Below are positions 7,540-54,963 of a stretch of 64,000 nt of DNA, piece after piece. A program made the translations under genes and the position numbers. Source of the stretch: Candidatus Gastranaerophilales bacterium (lineage in GTDB: Bacteria > Cyanobacteriota > Vampirovibrionia > Gastranaerophilales > Gastranaerophilaceae); NCBI GenBank assembly GCA_944324945.1, contig CALUYE010000002.1, positions 1 through 64,000 on the forward strand. Direction: 5' to 3'. Below the pieces are notes generated by a model, which saw nothing but the letters and a program-made list of their open reading frames with translations, was not told the DNA's origin and searched no databases. Position 1 is the first letter of the stretch, and each line of letters starts with the position of its first letter.

Positions 7540-8529
7540 TTAAACAAAATTGTAAAATTCTTTTTCTATATCTTCTTTTGTTGTATCTTTCGCGCCTTTT
7601 TGGGTTATTGTGTATGATTTTTCTATTGTTTTATTATTTGCATCGTATCCGAAGTATACTCTTGAAGGTTTATTTTTTTCATCGAATATGACCATTTTTT
7701 CTGCTTTGGTTCTTTTTTGGGGTTCATTCCATTCATAATTTTCAAAATATTCATTGTATTCGTTGATTGCTTTTGATGCTTTTATTGAACCGTCTTGTGT
7801 CTTGGTTATATTTTCAAAATAGAAGGATAAGGAGCTGTCAAAAGAATATTCAATCTTTTTTTCTGCTTTGAAAGTTTTTTTATCAATAATTTCTAGATTC
7901 TTGTTGTATTCAATTAGAAACCCGTCAAATGCGTATAAAAATACCCTTGATGCTTTTTTTGAATCGTTTTTTGTTTGCGTGTTTTGCGAGTATTCGCTTA
8001 GTTCATTTTGAAAGAATTTGTATGTTTCTTGCGTTTTTTCGCTTCCAAAGGGAGCATTTTCAATACCTTTTGATATAATTGTTTTATCGGGTAAAAATGT
8101 TGTTCTTCTTAAAAGCTTGCTGCCATCAGAAGAAAATTCTTCCATAACGGTTTTATCGCTGTTTTTTGTGATTTTCCTTACCGTTATGCCGTTAATTGTT
8201 TCTTCTCCTTTAGCGTATAATTTATTTACTTCATTCAATAAGCTTTTTGATTTTTTATAGATTTCAAATCCTTCTTCTTCTATATCACGCGATAGCTCAT
8301 CTGCTTTATTTTTTTCTATGGTTGCCTTATTTAAAAGATTTTTTATCGGGTTTTCTTTACTTTTAATTTGCGAAAGCGTATATGTTCCAAAAAGCGCAAG
8401 AGCTGTACTTCCTATAACGGCTGCTTTTGCTTTCGGGTTTTTAATCGTGTTTATTGAAGGTTTTTTTATTGCGTGATTTTTTGAGAAATTACTTAATTTT
8501 GAATGGAAAAAACTAATCGGTTTTATCAT
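7540..8529 (-). CDS. Lineage-type hypothetical protein with one membrane segment
   Basis: 329 residues. A Lys-rich N-terminus leads to a hydrophobic stretch near residues 35-52 (AKAAVIGSTALALFGTYTL), a helical linker, and the same VRKITKNSDKTVMEEFS / DGSKLLRRTTF block as the next gene, followed by beta-rich repeats. The N-terminal segment suggests membrane anchoring, which the downstream paralogue lacks. An AAAGGA ribosome site supports the start. The pair looks like a local duplication that diverged in its ends but kept the central block. Function unknown. Confidence 0.7.
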   Translation of the reverse strand: MIKPISFFHSKLSNFSKNHAIKKPSINTIKNPKAKAAVIGSTALALFGTYTLSQIKSKENPIKNLLNKATIEKNKADELSRDIEEEGFEIYKKSKSLLNEVNKLYAKGEETINGITVRKITKNSDKTVMEEFSSDGSKLLRRTTFLPDKTIISKGIENAPFGSEKTQETYKFFQNELSEYSQNTQTKNDSKKASRVFLYAFDGFLIEYNKNLEIIDKKTFKAEKKIEYSFDSSLSFYFENITKTQDGSIKASKAINEYNEYFENYEWNEPQKRTKAEKMVIFDEKNKPSRVYFGYDANNKTIEKSYTITQKGAKDTTKEDIEKEFYNFV

Positions 8530-8581
8530 TTTTATTTCCTTTTGATTGTATTAAAACTCGAAAACAAAATATTTTGCTAAA

Positions 8582-9775
8582 TTAAAAATGATACAATCTG
8601 TCGTTAAATTTTCTTGCCTGCTGTGTTAATTCGACATTATGCACTCTTATGTATTCAATTTCATTCTGCATTAAATAGCTTGCGGCTATTGCGGAGACAA
8701 AATCAGCGTCTTTAGGCTCTTTTGTATTTATTACATCCCGCATAAATCTTTTTCTTGAAACCCCTGCAATAATCGGGTATCCCATGGATTTAAATTCGGA
8801 TATTCTTTTTAAAAGTTCGAAATTTTGCGCTATATCTTTTGCAAAGCCAAAGCCTAAATCGATTATTATATTTTCTCTATCAAGTCCTAAAGATTCTGCA
8901 AGCTGTGCTTTTTCGTATATTTCTTTATAAATATCATCAACAATTTCACTGTAATAATTAAGAGAATCCATGGTTTTAGAATCCCCTCTTGAATGCATTA
9001 TGACAAGTTTTTTGTTGTGTTCGCGGCAGATGTTTGCAAATTCTACATTATTTAAAAAGCTTACATCATTAATAATATCCGCCCCTGCTTCAATCGATGC
9101 CTTAGCGCATCCGAGCGTCATTGTATCGACGCTTATTTCAATGTGCGGATATGTTTTTTTAAGCGCAACTACTATAGGCACAACTTTTTCAATTTCATAT
9201 ACAACAGAAACTAAATCCGCATACGGTTTTGTTGATTGCGCTCCGATATCAATGATATCTGCTCCCGAGTCAATCATATCAATTGCATGATTAATAGCTT
9301 TTTCAATTTCAACATATTCGCCTCCGTCTGAAAAAGAATTCGGGGTTAAATTTAAAATACCCATGATTTTGGGTCTTTGAGACGGTTTTAATTCGTTTTC
9401 AAGTTGTTTAAGCAATACTTTGCTTAATTTTGAAAGCGAAAAAGGCTGGTTTGATAATTTTTTAGCAACATGCTCCAATTGCGAAACAGATCCCGATAAA
9501 AGACAATCTGAAAAACTGACGGAGCAATCTATGACTCCTCGATTAACCGCGCAATCACATCCGCATGAAAGAGCTGTTTGCTTGATTATTGTTGCTTGCG
9601 ACGGTGTAACATCGAAAATTTTAAGTGATAAGAAAATGTGCTTTTTTGTCGCGTGGCTAACATAACTTTCATCAAATCCAACCGAGGCTACTTCATCTTT
9701 TATAAATTTTTTTAAAACTGTTTTTGATAAAAATTGCATTTTTTTATTTAACAAATATAATAGTGATACATACAT
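8582..9775 (-). CDS. folP: Dihydropteroate synthase with N-terminal extension
   Basis: 397 residues; ordinary FolP has about 280. It condenses p-aminobenzoate with pterin pyrophosphate in folate synthesis. The DHPS TIM-barrel begins near residue 136: IMGILNLTPNSFSDGG (pterin loop), DIIDIGAQSTKP, ISVDTMTLGCAKASIEAGADIINDV, IIIDLGFGFAKD and IIAGVSRKRFM are all present. Residues 1-130 form an extra domain with several Cys (CGCDCAVNRGVIDC), resembling the accessory region in some longer DHPS proteins. No strong ribosome site is visible; a second ATG at 9739 would remove 12 residues. The start region overlaps a promoter on the other strand. Confidence 0.92.
   Translation of the reverse strand: MYVSLLYLLNKKMQFLSKTVLKKFIKDEVASVGFDESYVSHATKKHIFLSLKIFDVTPSQATIIKQTALSCGCDCAVNRGVIDCSVSFSDCLLSGSVSQLEHVAKKLSNQPFSLSKLSKVLLKQLENELKPSQRPKIMGILNLTPNSFSDGGEYVEIEKAINHAIDMIDSGADIIDIGAQSTKPYADLVSVVYEIEKVVPIVVALKKTYPHIEISVDTMTLGCAKASIEAGADIINDVSFLNNVEFANICREHNKKLVIMHSRGDSKTMDSLNYYSEIVDDIYKEIYEKAQLAESLGLDRENIIIDLGFGFAKDIAQNFELLKRISEFKSMGYPIIAGVSRKRFMRDVINTKEPKDADFVSAIAASYLMQNEIEYIRVHNVELTQQARKFNDRLYHF
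9734..9761 (+). promoter_or_regulatory. Promoter of the L25 gene, overlapping the folP start
   Basis: TTGCAT (9734-9739), 16-base spacer, TATAAT (9756-9761). The -35 lies inside the first codons of folP on the other strand, so the two genes share a compact divergent region and may interfere with each other. Confidence 0.55.
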
Positions 9776-9815
9776 TATTAAAGATTAAGCAAAACATTAA
9801 GTCAAGGAGAATAAA

Positions 9816-10094
9816 ATGGCAAACGCTACAATTAATGCAACAAAAAGAGAAGAAGGTAAAAACCCTCGTCAAATCAGAAGTGCAGGTTTTTTACCCGGTT
9901 CAATATACGGTAAAGGAATTGAAGCTCAATCAATCCAATTAAACACCCATGAATTTGAAATGGCATATAAAAACAATAAAGATGCTCAATGGGAAGTAAA
10001 TTTTGACGGCAAAAAATTAAATGCAAAAATTCAAGAATTGCAAATTAACTACGCAACAAACGAATACTTAAACGTTGAGTTTGTTTTGGTTTAA
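9816..10094 (+). CDS. rplY: Ribosomal protein bL25, short form
   Basis: 92 residues. L25 binds 5S rRNA on the large subunit. The hallmark is near the N-terminus: PRQIRSAGFLPGSIYGKGIE, which matches the R-x-x-G-x-(I/L)-P-x-x-(I/V)-YG signature. The length matches E. coli-type L25 rather than the longer CTC form with a second domain. AAGGAG five to six bases before the ATG at 9816 fixes the start; an overlapping frame from 9724 is a shadow. Its stop codon shares the bases TTAA with the stop of the convergent gene. Confidence 0.85.
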   Translation: MANATINATKREEGKNPRQIRSAGFLPGSIYGKGIEAQSIQLNTHEFEMAYKNNKDAQWEVNFDGKKLNAKIQELQINYATNEYLNVEFVLV

Positions 10095-10408
10095 ACTGCC
10101 TCATCATCTTCATTTAAAAATGTTGCACTAAAATCGTTTTGAGAATTAAGTGAATCAATAAAGTGATTATATCTTTCAATTCTCAATTTTAACCAACCGA
10201 GCATTGTGGTTGGGCCTATAATTTTAACGACACGAACAGGAGCAAAACAGTTTCTGCTCGTGTTGTATTTTTCTTCCATAAATGTCTGACATTTACAGTT
10301 TAATTCATCGATTAAATCATACAAAGTCCTTAACCATGCACCCTGAACCGATAATTCATCTACTTTAATTTCTAATATCATATCTACCTGTCTTTCCGTG
10401 ACCTTCAA
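10091..10408 (-). CDS. Small hypothetical protein
   Basis: 105 residues, acidic, with no signal peptide or membrane segment. It starts MKVTERQVDMILEIKVDEL, has two isolated Cys in NCKCQTF and an amphipathic middle (MLGWLKLRIERYNHFIDSL). I do not recognise the family. It is convergent with rplY, the two stops sharing four bases, and its start is about 120 bases from uvrC on the other strand. The regular reading frame and its tight fit between genes favour a real gene. Confidence 0.55.
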   Translation of the reverse strand: MKVTERQVDMILEIKVDELSVQGAWLRTLYDLIDELNCKCQTFMEEKYNTSRNCFAPVRVVKIIGPTTMLGWLKLRIERYNHFIDSLNSQNDFSATFLNEDDEAV

Positions 10409-10525
10409 TACATTTTAAGCTGCTGCTTAGCTAATAAGTTCCACAAAGCAAATATTATTAACATGTTTTTGATTTTATTGTTTTAAAATCATTCAAATAT
10501 CGTATTATGGTGTTAATATAATATT

Positions 10526-42428: not shown

Positions 42429-42508
<80 letters not shown>

Positions 42509-43869: not shown

Positions 43870-44319
43870 ATGAGTGAACCAATAGAAATAAAACTTGATA
43901 ATAAAGAGGTTGAATCAAGATTACTTGATTTGGCAAAACGAAGCGAAAACCTGCGGCCGTTAATGAAAAATATCGCAGGTATTTTCGCATATTCTACCGA
44001 AGAAAATTTTAAAGAAGAGAGCAGATCTGATAAGTGGATAGATTTAGCCGAATCAACGAAAAAACAGAGAACGAAGACAGGACATTACCCCGGACAAATT
44101 TTACAAGTTTCAGGGCAACTGGCATCATCAATAAGTACATATTATGACAATGATTCCGCTGTTATTGGTTCAAATCTTGATTATGCCGCAATTCATCAAC
44201 TTGGAGGTCAAGCCGGTAAAAATCAATCTGTAACCATACCTGCAAGACCATATTTACAACTTAATAATGAAGACTTTGAAGAAATCCTTAGTATGACCGA
44301 AAATTTTTTAGGGGAATAG
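43870..44319 (+). CDS. Phage virion morphogenesis protein (Mu gpG / tail completion type)
   Basis: 149 residues, normal for the family. SRSDKWIDLAESTKKQRTKTGHYPGQILQVSGQLASSISTYYDNDSAVIGSNLDYAAIHQLGG carries the family signature: W-x-x-L, the Gly-x-x-L-x-x-S-G-x-L turn, and the A-x-I-H-Q-x-G end, with IPARPYL near the C-terminus. In Mu-like phages it helps complete heads or tails. Here it has no structural partners, so it is a survivor of a decayed prophage or a gene reused by a satellite. Confidence 0.8.
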   Translation: MSEPIEIKLDNKEVESRLLDLAKRSENLRPLMKNIAGIFAYSTEENFKEESRSDKWIDLAESTKKQRTKTGHYPGQILQVSGQLASSISTYYDNDSAVIGSNLDYAAIHQLGGQAGKNQSVTIPARPYLQLNNEDFEEILSMTENFLGE

Positions 44320-44358: not shown

Positions 44359-44901
44359 ATGACAACTGTAGAACCTATTAGAAACAAAACCGATATTAAA
44401 AAGGTTGAAAAAGTTTTAAAAAGCCAAAGTCAAAGAAATTTATTGCTTTTTGTTCTTGGAACAAATTGTGGATTAAGAATTTCTGATTTACTTTCACTTG
44501 ATGTTGGAGATGTAAGGAATAAAACTCACATTCAAATAGTAGAGAAGAAAACAGGAAAATTTAAAAAGTTTCCAATTAACGAGAGATTAAAACCTATGAT
44601 TGAAGAATTTGTTAAAGGCAGAAGAAATACTGAACCTTTATTTTTATCGCATTGGAAACATCGTCTTGATAGAGTAACTGCATATTACTTGATTCGTGAT
44701 GCGTGTGAAAAAGCAGGACTTCAAGAAAGAATCGGAACGCATTCGATGCGAAAAACATTTGGATATCATCATTACCAACAATTTAAAGATGTAGTAATCC
44801 TGCAAAAGATTTTTAATCATTCCAGTCCTCAAATAACATTGAGATATATTGGGATTGAGCAAGACCAAATTGATTATAGTTACAGTAACTTTATTATATA
44901 G
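44359..44901 (+). CDS. Compact catalytic-only tyrosine recombinase (FimB/RecV-like size)
   Basis: 180 residues, lacking the N-terminal core-binding domain. Catalytic residues: Arg in GTNCGLRISDLLSL, Lys in KKTGKFKKFPI, H-x-x-R in IGTHSMRKTFGYHHY, His in FNHSSPQITLRYIG with the Tyr nucleophile. AGGAGAGGA precedes the ATG. About 70% identical by eye, over the same length, to the protein at 53181. Recombinases of this size (FimB, FimE, C. difficile RecV) invert promoter segments; an inverted-repeat pair starts 45 bases after this gene. It could also be the element's integrase, as there is no other. Confidence 0.88.
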   Translation: MTTVEPIRNKTDIKKVEKVLKSQSQRNLLLFVLGTNCGLRISDLLSLDVGDVRNKTHIQIVEKKTGKFKKFPINERLKPMIEEFVKGRRNTEPLFLSHWKHRLDRVTAYYLIRDACEKAGLQERIGTHSMRKTFGYHHYQQFKDVVILQKIFNHSSPQITLRYIGIEQDQIDYSYSNFII

Positions 44902-44945
44902 TCAAAACCCTCTCTACTAGAGTGGTTGCATTACATTTTATTTAC

Positions 44946-44972
44946 CTTACAAAATAACCATTTTGTATAGCA
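44946..44972 (+). repeat. Inverted repeat IR1-L of candidate invertible segment
   Basis: 27 bases beginning CTTACAAAATAACCATTTTG; matches the reverse complement of 45109-45135 at 23 of 27 positions. Each copy is itself a dyad, CTTACAA or TACAAAAT arms around an AACC-like centre, as tyrosine recombinase core sites are. Confidence 0.7.
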
Positions 44973-45043
44973 TTTAATAAAAAAATCATAGAAAGCGTTG
45001 CTACTGTTTAATTTTATGAAATTTTTATCTTCTTTTAAAATGT

Positions 45044-45072
45044 AGTGTATCAAATATTTTTTCTTCATTCAA
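45044..45072 (-). promoter_or_regulatory. Leftward promoter inside the candidate invertible segment
   Basis: On the reverse strand TTGAAT (45067-45072), 17-base spacer, TACACT (45044-45049). It points away from the regulator gene at 45161; inversion of 44973-45108 would turn it towards that gene. An ACCCATATGGGT palindrome (45075-45086) sits beside its -35. A/T-rich DNA gives chance promoters, so certainty is low. Confidence 0.4.
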
Positions 45073-45108
45073 TTACCCATATGGGTTAATTTTCCAGCAT
45101 AAAAAAAT

Positions 45109-45135
45109 TGCCTTACAAAATGGTTAAATTGTAAG
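45109..45135 (-). repeat. Inverted repeat IR1-R of candidate invertible segment
   Basis: 27 bases from TGCCTTACAAAATGGTTAAA to TTGTAAG; reverse complement of IR1-L with four differences. It ends 25 bases before the regulator start. The spacer between the repeats is 136 bases. Confidence 0.7.
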
Positions 45136-51702: not shown

Positions 51703-51750
51703 CTCATAACCCGAAGGTCGTTGGTTCAAATCCAGCTCCCGCAACCATTT
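51703..51750 (+). repeat. attR: right 48-bp direct repeat (tRNA-fMet 3' half)
   Basis: Exact copy of 42461-42508. It lacks the tRNA 5' half, so it is not a second tRNA gene. Confidence 0.95.
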
Positions 51751-53180: not shown

Positions 53181-53723
53181 ATGACTTGTGTAGAACCAAT
53201 AAGAAAAATTTCGCAAATTAGAAAAATCGAAAAACTGTTAAATCTTCAAAGCAAAAGAAACCTTATTTTATTTACGATAGGTATAAACTGCGGATTAAGG
53301 ATTTCAGACATTTTATCGCTTAATGTCGGTGATGTTAAAAATAAGAATTTTATTGAAATTAAAGAGAAAAAAACGGGAAAATTTAAAAAATTTCCAATCA
53401 ATTCAAAATTAAAACCCATGCTTGATGATTTTGTAAAAAACAGAAAAAACAATGAACCTTTGTTTTTATCAATTTTTAACAATAGGCTTGAGCGCATTGG
53501 TGCATATTATATAATTACCGATGTTTGCAAAAAAGCAGGTCTTGAAGAAAAAATCGGAACTCATACAATGAGAAAAACGTTTGGCTATCATCATTATAAA
53601 AAATTCAAAGATATAGCCATGCTGCAAAAAATTTTTAACCATTCCACCCCTCAAATAACCCTGAGATACATAGGAATAGAACAAGAGGAAATTTATCAAA
53701 GCTATTCCAATTTTATTCTTTGA
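53181..53723 (+). CDS. Second compact catalytic-only tyrosine recombinase
   Basis: 180 residues, about 70% identical by eye to the protein at 44359, with the same catalytic set: Arg in GINCGLRISDILSL, Lys in KKTGKFKKFPI, H-x-x-R in IGTHTMRKTFGYHHY, His/Tyr in FNHSTPQITLRYIG. AAGGAGG precedes the ATG. It stands 1.4 kb outside the tRNA-fMet element. An inverted-repeat pair begins directly at its stop codon and the glycan operon follows, so inversion of the 92-base spacer is its probable job, in the way of FimB-type switches. Confidence 0.88.
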   Translation: MTCVEPIRKISQIRKIEKLLNLQSKRNLILFTIGINCGLRISDILSLNVGDVKNKNFIEIKEKKTGKFKKFPINSKLKPMLDDFVKNRKNNEPLFLSIFNNRLERIGAYYIITDVCKKAGLEEKIGTHTMRKTFGYHHYKKFKDIAMLQKIFNHSTPQITLRYIGIEQEEIYQSYSNFIL

Positions 53724-53749
53724 TTTAACAATATGTGCATAATGTTAAG
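53724..53749 (+). repeat. Inverted repeat IR2-L of candidate invertible segment
   Basis: 26 bases, TTTAACAATATGTGCATAAT then GTTAAG; matches the reverse complement of 53842-53867 at 22 of 26 positions, the shared part being TTAACAA-nn-TGTGCATAAT-GTTAA. TTAACA/TGTTAA half-sites around a six- to eight-base centre fit a tyrosine recombinase core site. Confidence 0.78.
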
Positions 53750-53797
53750 ATGTATTATTTTAGAACTGTTTTGCCTTTAAATTTTATTAAATTTATC

Positions 53798-53827
53798 TTG
53801 CGCAGTGCTATTTTTTTGTGTTATTAT
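53798..53827 (+). promoter_or_regulatory. Rightward promoter inside the candidate invertible segment
   Basis: TTGCGC (53798-53803), 18-base spacer, TATTAT (53822-53827); a second weak pair TTGCCT/TATCTT lies at 53771-53799. Both point to the glycan operon in the present orientation. Low certainty in DNA this rich in A+T. Confidence 0.35.
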
Positions 53828-53841
53828 CAACTTAAATTTGA

Positions 53842-53867
53842 TTTAACATTATGCACAATTTGTTAAG
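53842..53867 (-). repeat. Inverted repeat IR2-R of candidate invertible segment
   Basis: 26 bases, TTTAACATTATGCACAATTT then GTTAAG, the partner of IR2-L across a 92-base spacer. Confidence 0.78.
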
Positions 53868-53939
53868 TTAAATTTAGACATAACTGTTTGGGTTAATTGA
53901 TGTTTTTTATTGAAAATAATACAAATAGTTTAAATATAG

Positions 53940-54005
53940 CTGCGCTTTGCGCAGTCCAAAAACATTCATTGTTTCTTGTGCATATTGCGCAAGAAACATT
54001 TTTTT
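53940..54005 (+). terminator. Leader hairpins and strong terminator before the glycan operon
   Basis: CTGCGC/GCGCAG hairpin (53940-53954), then TGTTTCTTGTGCA (53970-53982), loop TAT, TGCGCAAGAAACA (53986-53998) with seven T's: a 13-bp stem with one G-T pair, a textbook terminator. It ends 16 bases before the ATG of the first glycosyltransferase, and no promoter fits between. Any transcript of the operon must pass it, so attenuation or antitermination is likely. CTTGCGCA at 53797 and the related CTTTGCGCA at 53945 can pair with TGCGCAAG in the terminator arm. Confidence 0.75.
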
Positions 54006-54021
54006 AAAAAAAAGGTCTTAA

Positions 54022-54963
54022 ATGTTTATAAAATTTAAAAACATAGATTCTCATTATATAATTTCATTCTTTGGTTTGACAATTAAAATAAAACACAAAA
54101 ACCCAAAAATCAAAGATGCAAAACTGTCTTTGCCTTGTTTAAACACTAACCCCCGTACAGTTAAAATCATCCTAAGCCTTACAACTTTCCCCGATAGAAT
54201 TAACTCAGTCTCAAAAACAATTAAAACCCTCCTAAATCAAACCCTAAAACCCGATAAAGTTATTCTATGGCTAGCTAGCGAACAATTCCCAAAAAAAGAA
54301 CAAGAACTTCCCAATGACCTTTTAGAACTTAAAAATTTCGGACTGGATATTAAATGGTGCGAAGATATTAAATCTTACAAAAAACTAATCCCATCCTTAA
54401 TTGAATTTGAAAACGATATCATAATAACCTTTGATGATGATATTTATTATGATGAAGATATTGTAAAAAGGCTTTATGATGCGCATCTTGCAGATAGGGA
54501 AGCAGTTGTTGTTAACAGATATTCAAGAATTTATTTTAAAAACGATAAAATTAAATTTTTAAAAAGTTCAAAATTATACTTTTCAAACCCTCCAAAACCC
54601 TCTTTGTTAAACGTAATAATCGGCTGCGGCGGTGTTTTATACCCCCCAAAATCCCTAAACCCAAACGTCCTAAACAAACAAGAATTCATGTCCTTAATCC
54701 CAACCCACGACGACATCTGGTTCTGGCTAAACGCCATCCTAAACAACACCAAAATAAAAATTGTTGACGGATTCTCAACCAACCTAATTCCAATCGAAAA
54801 CACCCAACAATTCGGTTTATGTAAAATAAACAACAAATCCAAAAACGGAATTAATGCACTTGATGCACTTCGCATTATAACAAACAAATACCCATCAATC
54901 ATAAAAAAACTAAAGGAAGAAGATACCAATCTCAAAAAACTACTAAACGGAGACCTGAAATGA
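54022..54963 (+). CDS. GT2-like glycosyltransferase
   Basis: 313 residues. An opening like those of envelope glycan enzymes (ISFFGLTIKIKHKN) leads to a GT-A type fold: VKIILSLTTFPDRINSVSKTIKTLLNQTLKPDKVILWLASEQFP, then the metal-binding D-D-D in IIITFDDDIYYDEDIVKRLYD, then IGCGGVLYPPKSL and THDDIWFWLNAIL as acceptor-side signatures. No membrane segment. First gene of the operon, just behind a terminator; AAGGTC is a weak ribosome site. From about 54,580 to 55,280 the codons shift strongly to C-ending forms, unlike either side, which hints at a recombined segment spanning this gene and the next. Confidence 0.82.
   Translation: MFIKFKNIDSHYIISFFGLTIKIKHKNPKIKDAKLSLPCLNTNPRTVKIILSLTTFPDRINSVSKTIKTLLNQTLKPDKVILWLASEQFPKKEQELPNDLLELKNFGLDIKWCEDIKSYKKLIPSLIEFENDIIITFDDDIYYDEDIVKRLYDAHLADREAVVVNRYSRIYFKNDKIKFLKSSKLYFSNPPKPSLLNVIIGCGGVLYPPKSLNPNVLNKQEFMSLIPTHDDIWFWLNAILNNTKIKIVDGFSTNLIPIENTQQFGLCKINNKSKNGINALDALRIITNKYPSIIKKLKEEDTNLKKLLNGDLK

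Follow-up and report, generated by a model that had tools for sequence, protein, structure and literature searches.

Does the short stretch of DNA between a compact tyrosine recombinase gene and a run of glycosyltransferase genes in a Candidatus Gastranaerophilales genome act as an invertible promoter? The window that we analysed is 64,000 nucleotides long and lies on contig C2 of this 1.92-Mb genome, which is assembled in 15 contigs. Promoter inversion is well established in Bacteroides, Akkermansia, Clostridioides and E. coli. A literature search with most subscription journals outside its coverage turned up no description of phase variation or of invertons in Gastranaerophilales/Melainabacteria. 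We consider it very probable that the focal locus is a self-contained phase-variation switch, in which the recombinase would invert a 94-bp promoter segment and a surface glycan would vary between ON and OFF. The kind of switch is known; what is new is the lineage, the recombinase clade and the phage setting, and the phage setting is more novel than the switch itself. Coordinates are collected in Table 1.

The product of the recombinase gene matches Pfam Phage_integrase (PF00589, E = 2.2e-24), and R40, K64, H128, R131, H154 and Y163 are unchanged across all 102 aligned homologues; with this R-K-H-R-H-Y set inside a Phage_integrase domain the protein belongs to the tyrosine site-specific recombinase superfamily. 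It is also a member of phrog_216, whose profile covers residues 2–178 (E = 1.5e-56). The open frame has only 185 codons, and therefore no N-terminal domain is concealed 5' of the gene. The original prediction of a 180-residue, catalytic-only enzyme is borne out by the Pfam match and the conserved catalytic residues. The models closest to the recombinase core are XerA, XerC and XerD, and the protein aligns with their C-terminal part only. Membership among these chromosome-dimer recombinases was ruled out, with 63.1 bits against a cut-off of 335 and similar values, over the C-terminal half alone. Full-length Xer-like recombinases, of 297–309 aa, are encoded separately on contig C6.

The two core dyads, TTAACAATATGTGCATAATGTTAA and TTAACATTATGCACAATTTGTTAA, agree at 22 of 24 positions in inverted register, and both of the originally predicted repeat positions (53724–53749 and 53842–53867) hold. 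The same dyads can also be aligned as direct repeats (72% over 53 nt) because each site is near-palindromic, and it is only in inverted register that the central 6 bp (TGTGCA/TGCACA) agree. A whole-genome search gave no further copies of the site, its other two matches carrying 2 mismatches. The spacer had no exact match in viral contigs, and a DNA search with 53600–54200 against 28 genomes of the genus returned the end of the recombinase and scattered fragments, with no orthologous spacer. For the focal locus, which is known from one assembly, we infer inversion from sequence.

Table 1. Features of the focal cassette, its operon and the second cassette of the window
Feature	Coordinates	Strand	Basis or remark
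Paralogous compact recombinase, 69% identical, in phage-remnant integrative element (second cassette of window)	44359..44901	+	
Second cassette, left site, 23/27 inverted match	44946..44972	+	
Second cassette, right site; 136-bp spacer between sites	45109..45135	-	
Compact catalytic-only tyrosine recombinase, 180 aa, predicted invertase	53181..53723	+	Phage_integrase, phrog_216, catalytic residues 102/102
Left recombination site IRL, dyad TTAACA-N12-TGTTAA, 1 bp 3' of stop codon	53725..53748	+	
Predicted invertible segment, 94 bp	53749..53842	no strand	Homologous spacers inverted in relatives
Weak -35-like TTGCGC, 18 nt 5' of -10 hexamer (putative)	53798..53803	+	Sequence reading
Extended -10 motif TTTGTGTTATTAT, hexamer TATTAT 53822–53827, facing glycosyltransferase genes	53815..53827	+	
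Right recombination site IRR, inverted copy, 22/24	53843..53866	-	
Leader, 155 nt, switch to first glycosyltransferase gene; unusually long in family	53867..54021	+	
Intrinsic-terminator-like hairpin, 13 pairs, then TTTTTTT, directly 5' of RBS	53970..53998	+	Absent from original prediction
Glycosyltransferase family 2-like protein, 313 aa, operon gene 1	54022..54963	+	Pfam E 2.5e-4, below cut-off
GT8 + LicD protein, 689 aa	54960..57029	+	Pfam
Capsular polysaccharide synthesis (Caps_synth) / DXD sugar transferase, 325 aa	57029..58006	+	Pfam
GT92/GT2-type glycosyltransferase, 277 aa	58088..58921	+	Pfam

Homologous loci were assembled from genome contigs (80 loci; the relatives named in the search are Gastranaerophilales/Melainabacteria MAGs) and from the focal genome itself (three loci), and 74 had sufficient downstream sequence. 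A locus was scored as positive if an inverted pair matching at 20 or more of 24 positions, with a spacer of 40–400 bp, lay within 450 bp 3' of the recombinase stop codon. By this test 50 of the 74 loci, among them all three of the focal genome, are positive, as against 1/68 for upstream sequence, 1/67 for sequence 2000 bp further downstream and 5/222 for dinucleotide shuffles; the focal score of 22 was reached by none of the 222 shuffles. The inverted pair at the focal locus as a product of chance is excluded by this count and its controls. Some loci are near-copies of one another, and clustering of the spacers left 45 distinct ones among loci with a pair of at least 19/24. The arms often follow a common plan, TnACA-TTTTA-nnC-A-TTTTGTnA, with an asymmetric core that varies between loci and agrees between the two arms of a locus. 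The other 24 loci have no pair of at least 20/24; some of them (e.g. gL184) have weaker or three-site versions. Within the focal genome, two more close copies of the recombinase are encoded, one in the window (69% identity) and one on contig C12 (818–1357, 66%); the latter is glycan-linked and is followed 3' by an exact 24/24 inverted pair. With inverted pairs found specifically downstream of the gene, the adjacent recombinase is the predicted enzyme of inversion.

Several loci depart from the simple layout. Three sites are present within the first 400 bp past the recombinase stop in L116, L117, L095, L110 and gL184 (L184), where the middle site divides a region of ~290 bp into a pair of segments that may each flip; in L095 and L110 each half has a promoter motif, and the two point in opposite directions. 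Often the recombinase gene is followed by another compact one, as in L012 (118–591, minus strand), L051 (7779–8321), L069 and L070. On C12 this second gene lies between the exact inverted pair and a GT2 gene truncated by the contig end.

Natural variants show that the cassette inverts at the family level. Between L118 and L119/L120, which come from independent assemblies of separate projects, the 129-bp spacer is 100% identical and opposite in orientation, and the flanks are 99.3–100% identical (recombinase gene 536/537 nt, upstream 298/300, stop codon to arm 182/183, downstream 1000/1000). Both orientations were likewise found for L116 and L117, which differ by inversion of a 141-bp segment: the inner half-sites travelled with the segment and the outer half-sites stayed in place, and strand exchange therefore took place within the shared core TTAGTATT, the ~8-bp core of the dyad. 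Exchange at this position is what would be expected of a tyrosine recombinase. More diverged spacers that can be aligned only in reverse are those of L048/L121, L083/L121 and L094/L099.

What would such a segment switch? Spacers of the family are enriched in TTTGTGnTAnnAT, an extended -10 motif, with 3.7 occurrences per kb inside the spacers vs 0.14 per kb outside; its distance from the exit arm is mostly 12–29 nt, and conservation of the -35 region is poor. The motif was scored with a matrix against shuffled spacers. This matrix was derived from the same spacers, and therefore the score of the focal motif is not independent. The informative part of the result is instead the mixed direction of the motif, which points toward the downstream genes in 11 loci (the focal one included) and back over the recombinase in 23; for 22 loci no direction was assigned. 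Promoter-like pairs aimed at the glycosyltransferase genes had been predicted originally: a generic sigma-70 scan of the plus strand over 53650–54060 called no promoter, and what stands is the extended -10 motif of Table 1. From this motif we infer promoter activity of the focal segment, and the assembled orientation is predicted to be ON.

All four downstream genes had been read as glycosyltransferases, which Pfam confirms with the qualification given for the GT2-like first gene in Table 1. Across the family, no more than about 60 bp usually separates the second arm from the start of the next same-strand gene, and the first and second downstream genes chiefly encode glycan enzymes (GT2, GT1, GT9, Stealth, epimerases, UDP-galactopyranose mutase, UDP-glucose dehydrogenase, LicD). 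The focal operon fits this cargo. The layout of an invertible-promoter switch, with inverted repeats bounding a short segment with a predicted promoter 5' of an operon, is present here and common to dozens of related loci. The idea of an invertible promoter is supported by inverted repeats 3' of homologous recombinases and by both spacer orientations in two relatives, and further by the two directions of the spacer -10 motif among relatives and by glycan operons as the usual cargo. The first glycosyltransferase gene has a paralogue on contig C1: positions 54142–54200 are 92% identical to G000:C1:70268–70326 over 59 bases, and there are additional near-identical coding stretches, which points to glycosyltransferase genes having recently been duplicated or undergone gene conversion.

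We propose that the recombinase would bind the two inverted dyads just 3' of its own gene and exchange strands inside their central ~6–8 bp, inverting the 94-bp segment between them. The segment would hold a single promoter of the extended -10 type, driving the four-gene operon in the assembled orientation (ON) and facing back over the recombinase gene after inversion (OFF), where it would run antisense to the recombinase and might provide feedback. A surface glycan would then switch between ON and OFF, both the expression effect and the glycan phenotype being predicted from sequence. An ON transcript would have to traverse the strong leader hairpin. The leader is hairpin-rich (fold z -5.1); an Rfam search of it returned no RNA family, the focal hairpin has no second copy in the genome, and of the other long leaders tested only that of L052 has anything similar, a weak hairpin. 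Either attenuation may take place at this point, or the operon may be partly uncoupled from the switch.

It is unlikely that the locus is a true switch by descent that is now locked or decayed, with a segment that no longer flips or controls the glycosyltransferase genes. The focal arms differ at 2 of 24 positions, the 94-bp spacer is in the shortest class of a family in which most are 115–145 bp, the unusual leader places a hairpin and T7 between promoter and operon, and a related locus, gL187, has the promoter motif without a detectable inverted pair. Against decay, the recombinase is intact with all its catalytic residues, the central 6 bp still agree in inverted register, and relatives with 3 mismatches in 30 arm positions occur in both orientations. 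The hairpin-rich leader and its terminator-like element also speak for a more improbable reading, that inversion regulates after initiation, through leader RNA or termination, and not by moving a promoter; the C. difficile flagellar switch, which is reported to act after transcription initiation with Rho, is a precedent (PMC7446863). This is difficult to reconcile with the position of the hairpin outside the invertible segment, with the -10 motif of the spacers, which has a direction and is spaced fairly evenly from the exit arm, and with the absence of an upstream plus-strand promoter from the generic scan.

Two further alternatives concern the sites themselves. Xer-type sites have a layout of about 11-6-11, which each dyad resembles, and the two copies can be aligned as direct repeats; the recombinase core is nearest to Xer models and its family falls under the phage 'integrase' group phrog_216. 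That the dyads serve in resolution, excision or integration, as dif-like or attachment sites at which the recombinase deletes or inserts a short segment, is nevertheless very improbable: the central region matches in inverted register only, the relatives show inversion, and full-length Xer-like recombinases are encoded elsewhere in the genome. Each dyad, being palindromic, could also bind a dimeric regulator or fold as RNA, and might then be an operator or terminator, the inverted pairing being incidental and the recombinase working elsewhere. We give hardly any credence to this account, since arm identity, including the asymmetric core, is conserved over many recombinase-adjacent loci, and the natural inverted pairs, L118 vs L119 in particular, largely refute it at the family level.

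The promoter-inversion reading invites comparison with known systems. In E. coli fim, the compact FimB and FimE (~200 aa, no N-terminal domain) are encoded beside a promoter segment that is bounded by inverted repeats and faces a surface-structure operon. The fimS segment is ~314 bp long between 9-bp inverted repeats, vs 24-bp dyad arms and spacers of ~94–145 bp in the focal family, and fim has two recombinases, whereas the focal cassette has one and a glycan cargo. In Bacteroides, inversion at capsule loci is largely the work of a global serine recombinase, Mpi; in focal-type cassettes the recombinase is the cassette's own and directly upstream. The likeness to fim lies in a compact tyrosine recombinase without an N-terminal domain beside such a segment, and in the surface-structure operon (history in PMC11868660). 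By analogy, the focal cassette would function like the fim switch and like the capsule promoters that invert in Bacteroides and Akkermansia (PMC11868660, PMC13343947, PMC11892184). These gut commensals have promoters bounded by inverted repeats 5' of polysaccharide operons (PMC13343947, PMC11892184), in another phylum and with other repeat and promoter motifs; the Akkermansia motif, CGGATT..AATCCG, is unlike that of the focal family. In C. difficile, the tyrosine recombinase RecV inverts short segments 5' of surface and regulatory genes (flgB, cwpV; PMC7446863, PMC5386303), and RecV is needed for several unlinked switches, unlike the focal family, in which each cassette has its own enzyme. Of the FimB/RecV comparison made originally, the functional side stands; membership in FimB/FimE (NCBIfam NF007371 and NF007370) was ruled out, the models matching far below their cut-offs (37.7 vs 222 and 34.3 vs 221 bits).

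By sequence, the protein comes closest, among named relatives, to the phrog_216 'integrases' of phages of Streptococcus, Clostridioides and other Firmicutes, which are 42–51% identical over almost its full length. They share the compact size and also have dyads past the stop codon, but most lie 5' of HNH or terminase genes instead of glycan operons, and they fall outside the Gastranaerophilales sequences, which form a clade of their own against six Firmicutes phage proteins in the recombinase tree. In the eight examined, the 500 bp downstream contain no inverted pair above 17/24, and we dropped them as a precedent for the repeats. A dif-like dyad without an inverted partner (e.g. AATTAGACAGAATATAAGATATGTCTAATT) lies just past the recombinase stop in the Firmicutes phage relatives L174, L178, L180 and L181.

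In roughly two dozen of the 80 loci, phage genes closely precede the cassette (tail sheath, head closure, portal, minor head protein, Dam methylase and neck protein, or terminase with endolysin). Glycan operons stand behind the switch in the phage-adjacent loci L044, L099, L116/L117 and L118–L120, and both naturally inverted pairs are therefore prophage-borne. In L117, L119, L099 and L044, prophages with a contractile tail or with terminase and endolysin have the recombinase and invertible segment directly 5' of glycosyltransferase operons. Such cassettes suggest phase-variable lysogenic conversion. Prophage and chromosomal copies, the latter being loci with none of the nine phage markers tried within reach, are intermixed in the recombinase tree, whose supported branches require at least 11 changes between the two. 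A recombinase homologue (E <= 1e-30) is found in 197 of 288 sampled genomes of the family and in 34 of 41 genera, and a genome may have up to 10 of them; among 292 sampled genomes of the phylum, all 99 positives belong to this family, the Gastranaerophilaceae.

Tentatively, and with less than even confidence, we propose that temperate phages of Gastranaerophilales carry a portable cassette of phage-type mini-recombinase, its own inverted sites and promoter that makes their cargo (often glycan operons, also regulators and surface proteins) phase-variable, and that hosts have repeatedly acquired it for their own glycan loci, the focal one included. If true, phages would have spread phase-variable lysogenic conversion through a bacterial family, in two- and three-site versions. 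Gastranaerophilales are a common uncultured gut lineage in which the recombinase is widespread, each cassette having its own copy, and the cassette also occurs in prophages that have glycan operons behind it; it would join phase variation, phage-borne surface modification and possibly superinfection resistance in one transferable part. With sites, core and promoter motif known, ON and OFF states should be readable from existing metagenome reads.

The TTTGTG motif is missing from prophage loci in which a small HTH gene follows the switch, and the spacer has one and the same orientation in all of these. Cassettes of this type with a related spacer are found in the window (44973–45108) and in L050, L051, L053, L056, L062, L074 and L160–L166, with extra half-sites TTACATTTTG / CAAAATGTAATG upstream and in mid-spacer. 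In L066, a few kb beyond a prophage cassette, the opposite strand carries genes that resemble those of type I restriction specificity subunits (8333–10463, minus strand, by sequence reading). Within the window, a 48-bp exact direct repeat (42461–42508 and 51703–51750) of the 3' part of a tRNA-Met gene (42429–42505) encloses an integrated element of ~9.2 kb that holds the second cassette (44359–45135), a phage neck-like gene (43870–44319), an AAA ATPase and an HsdR-N-like gene. The focal switch is not part of this element and is 1.4 kb away from it.
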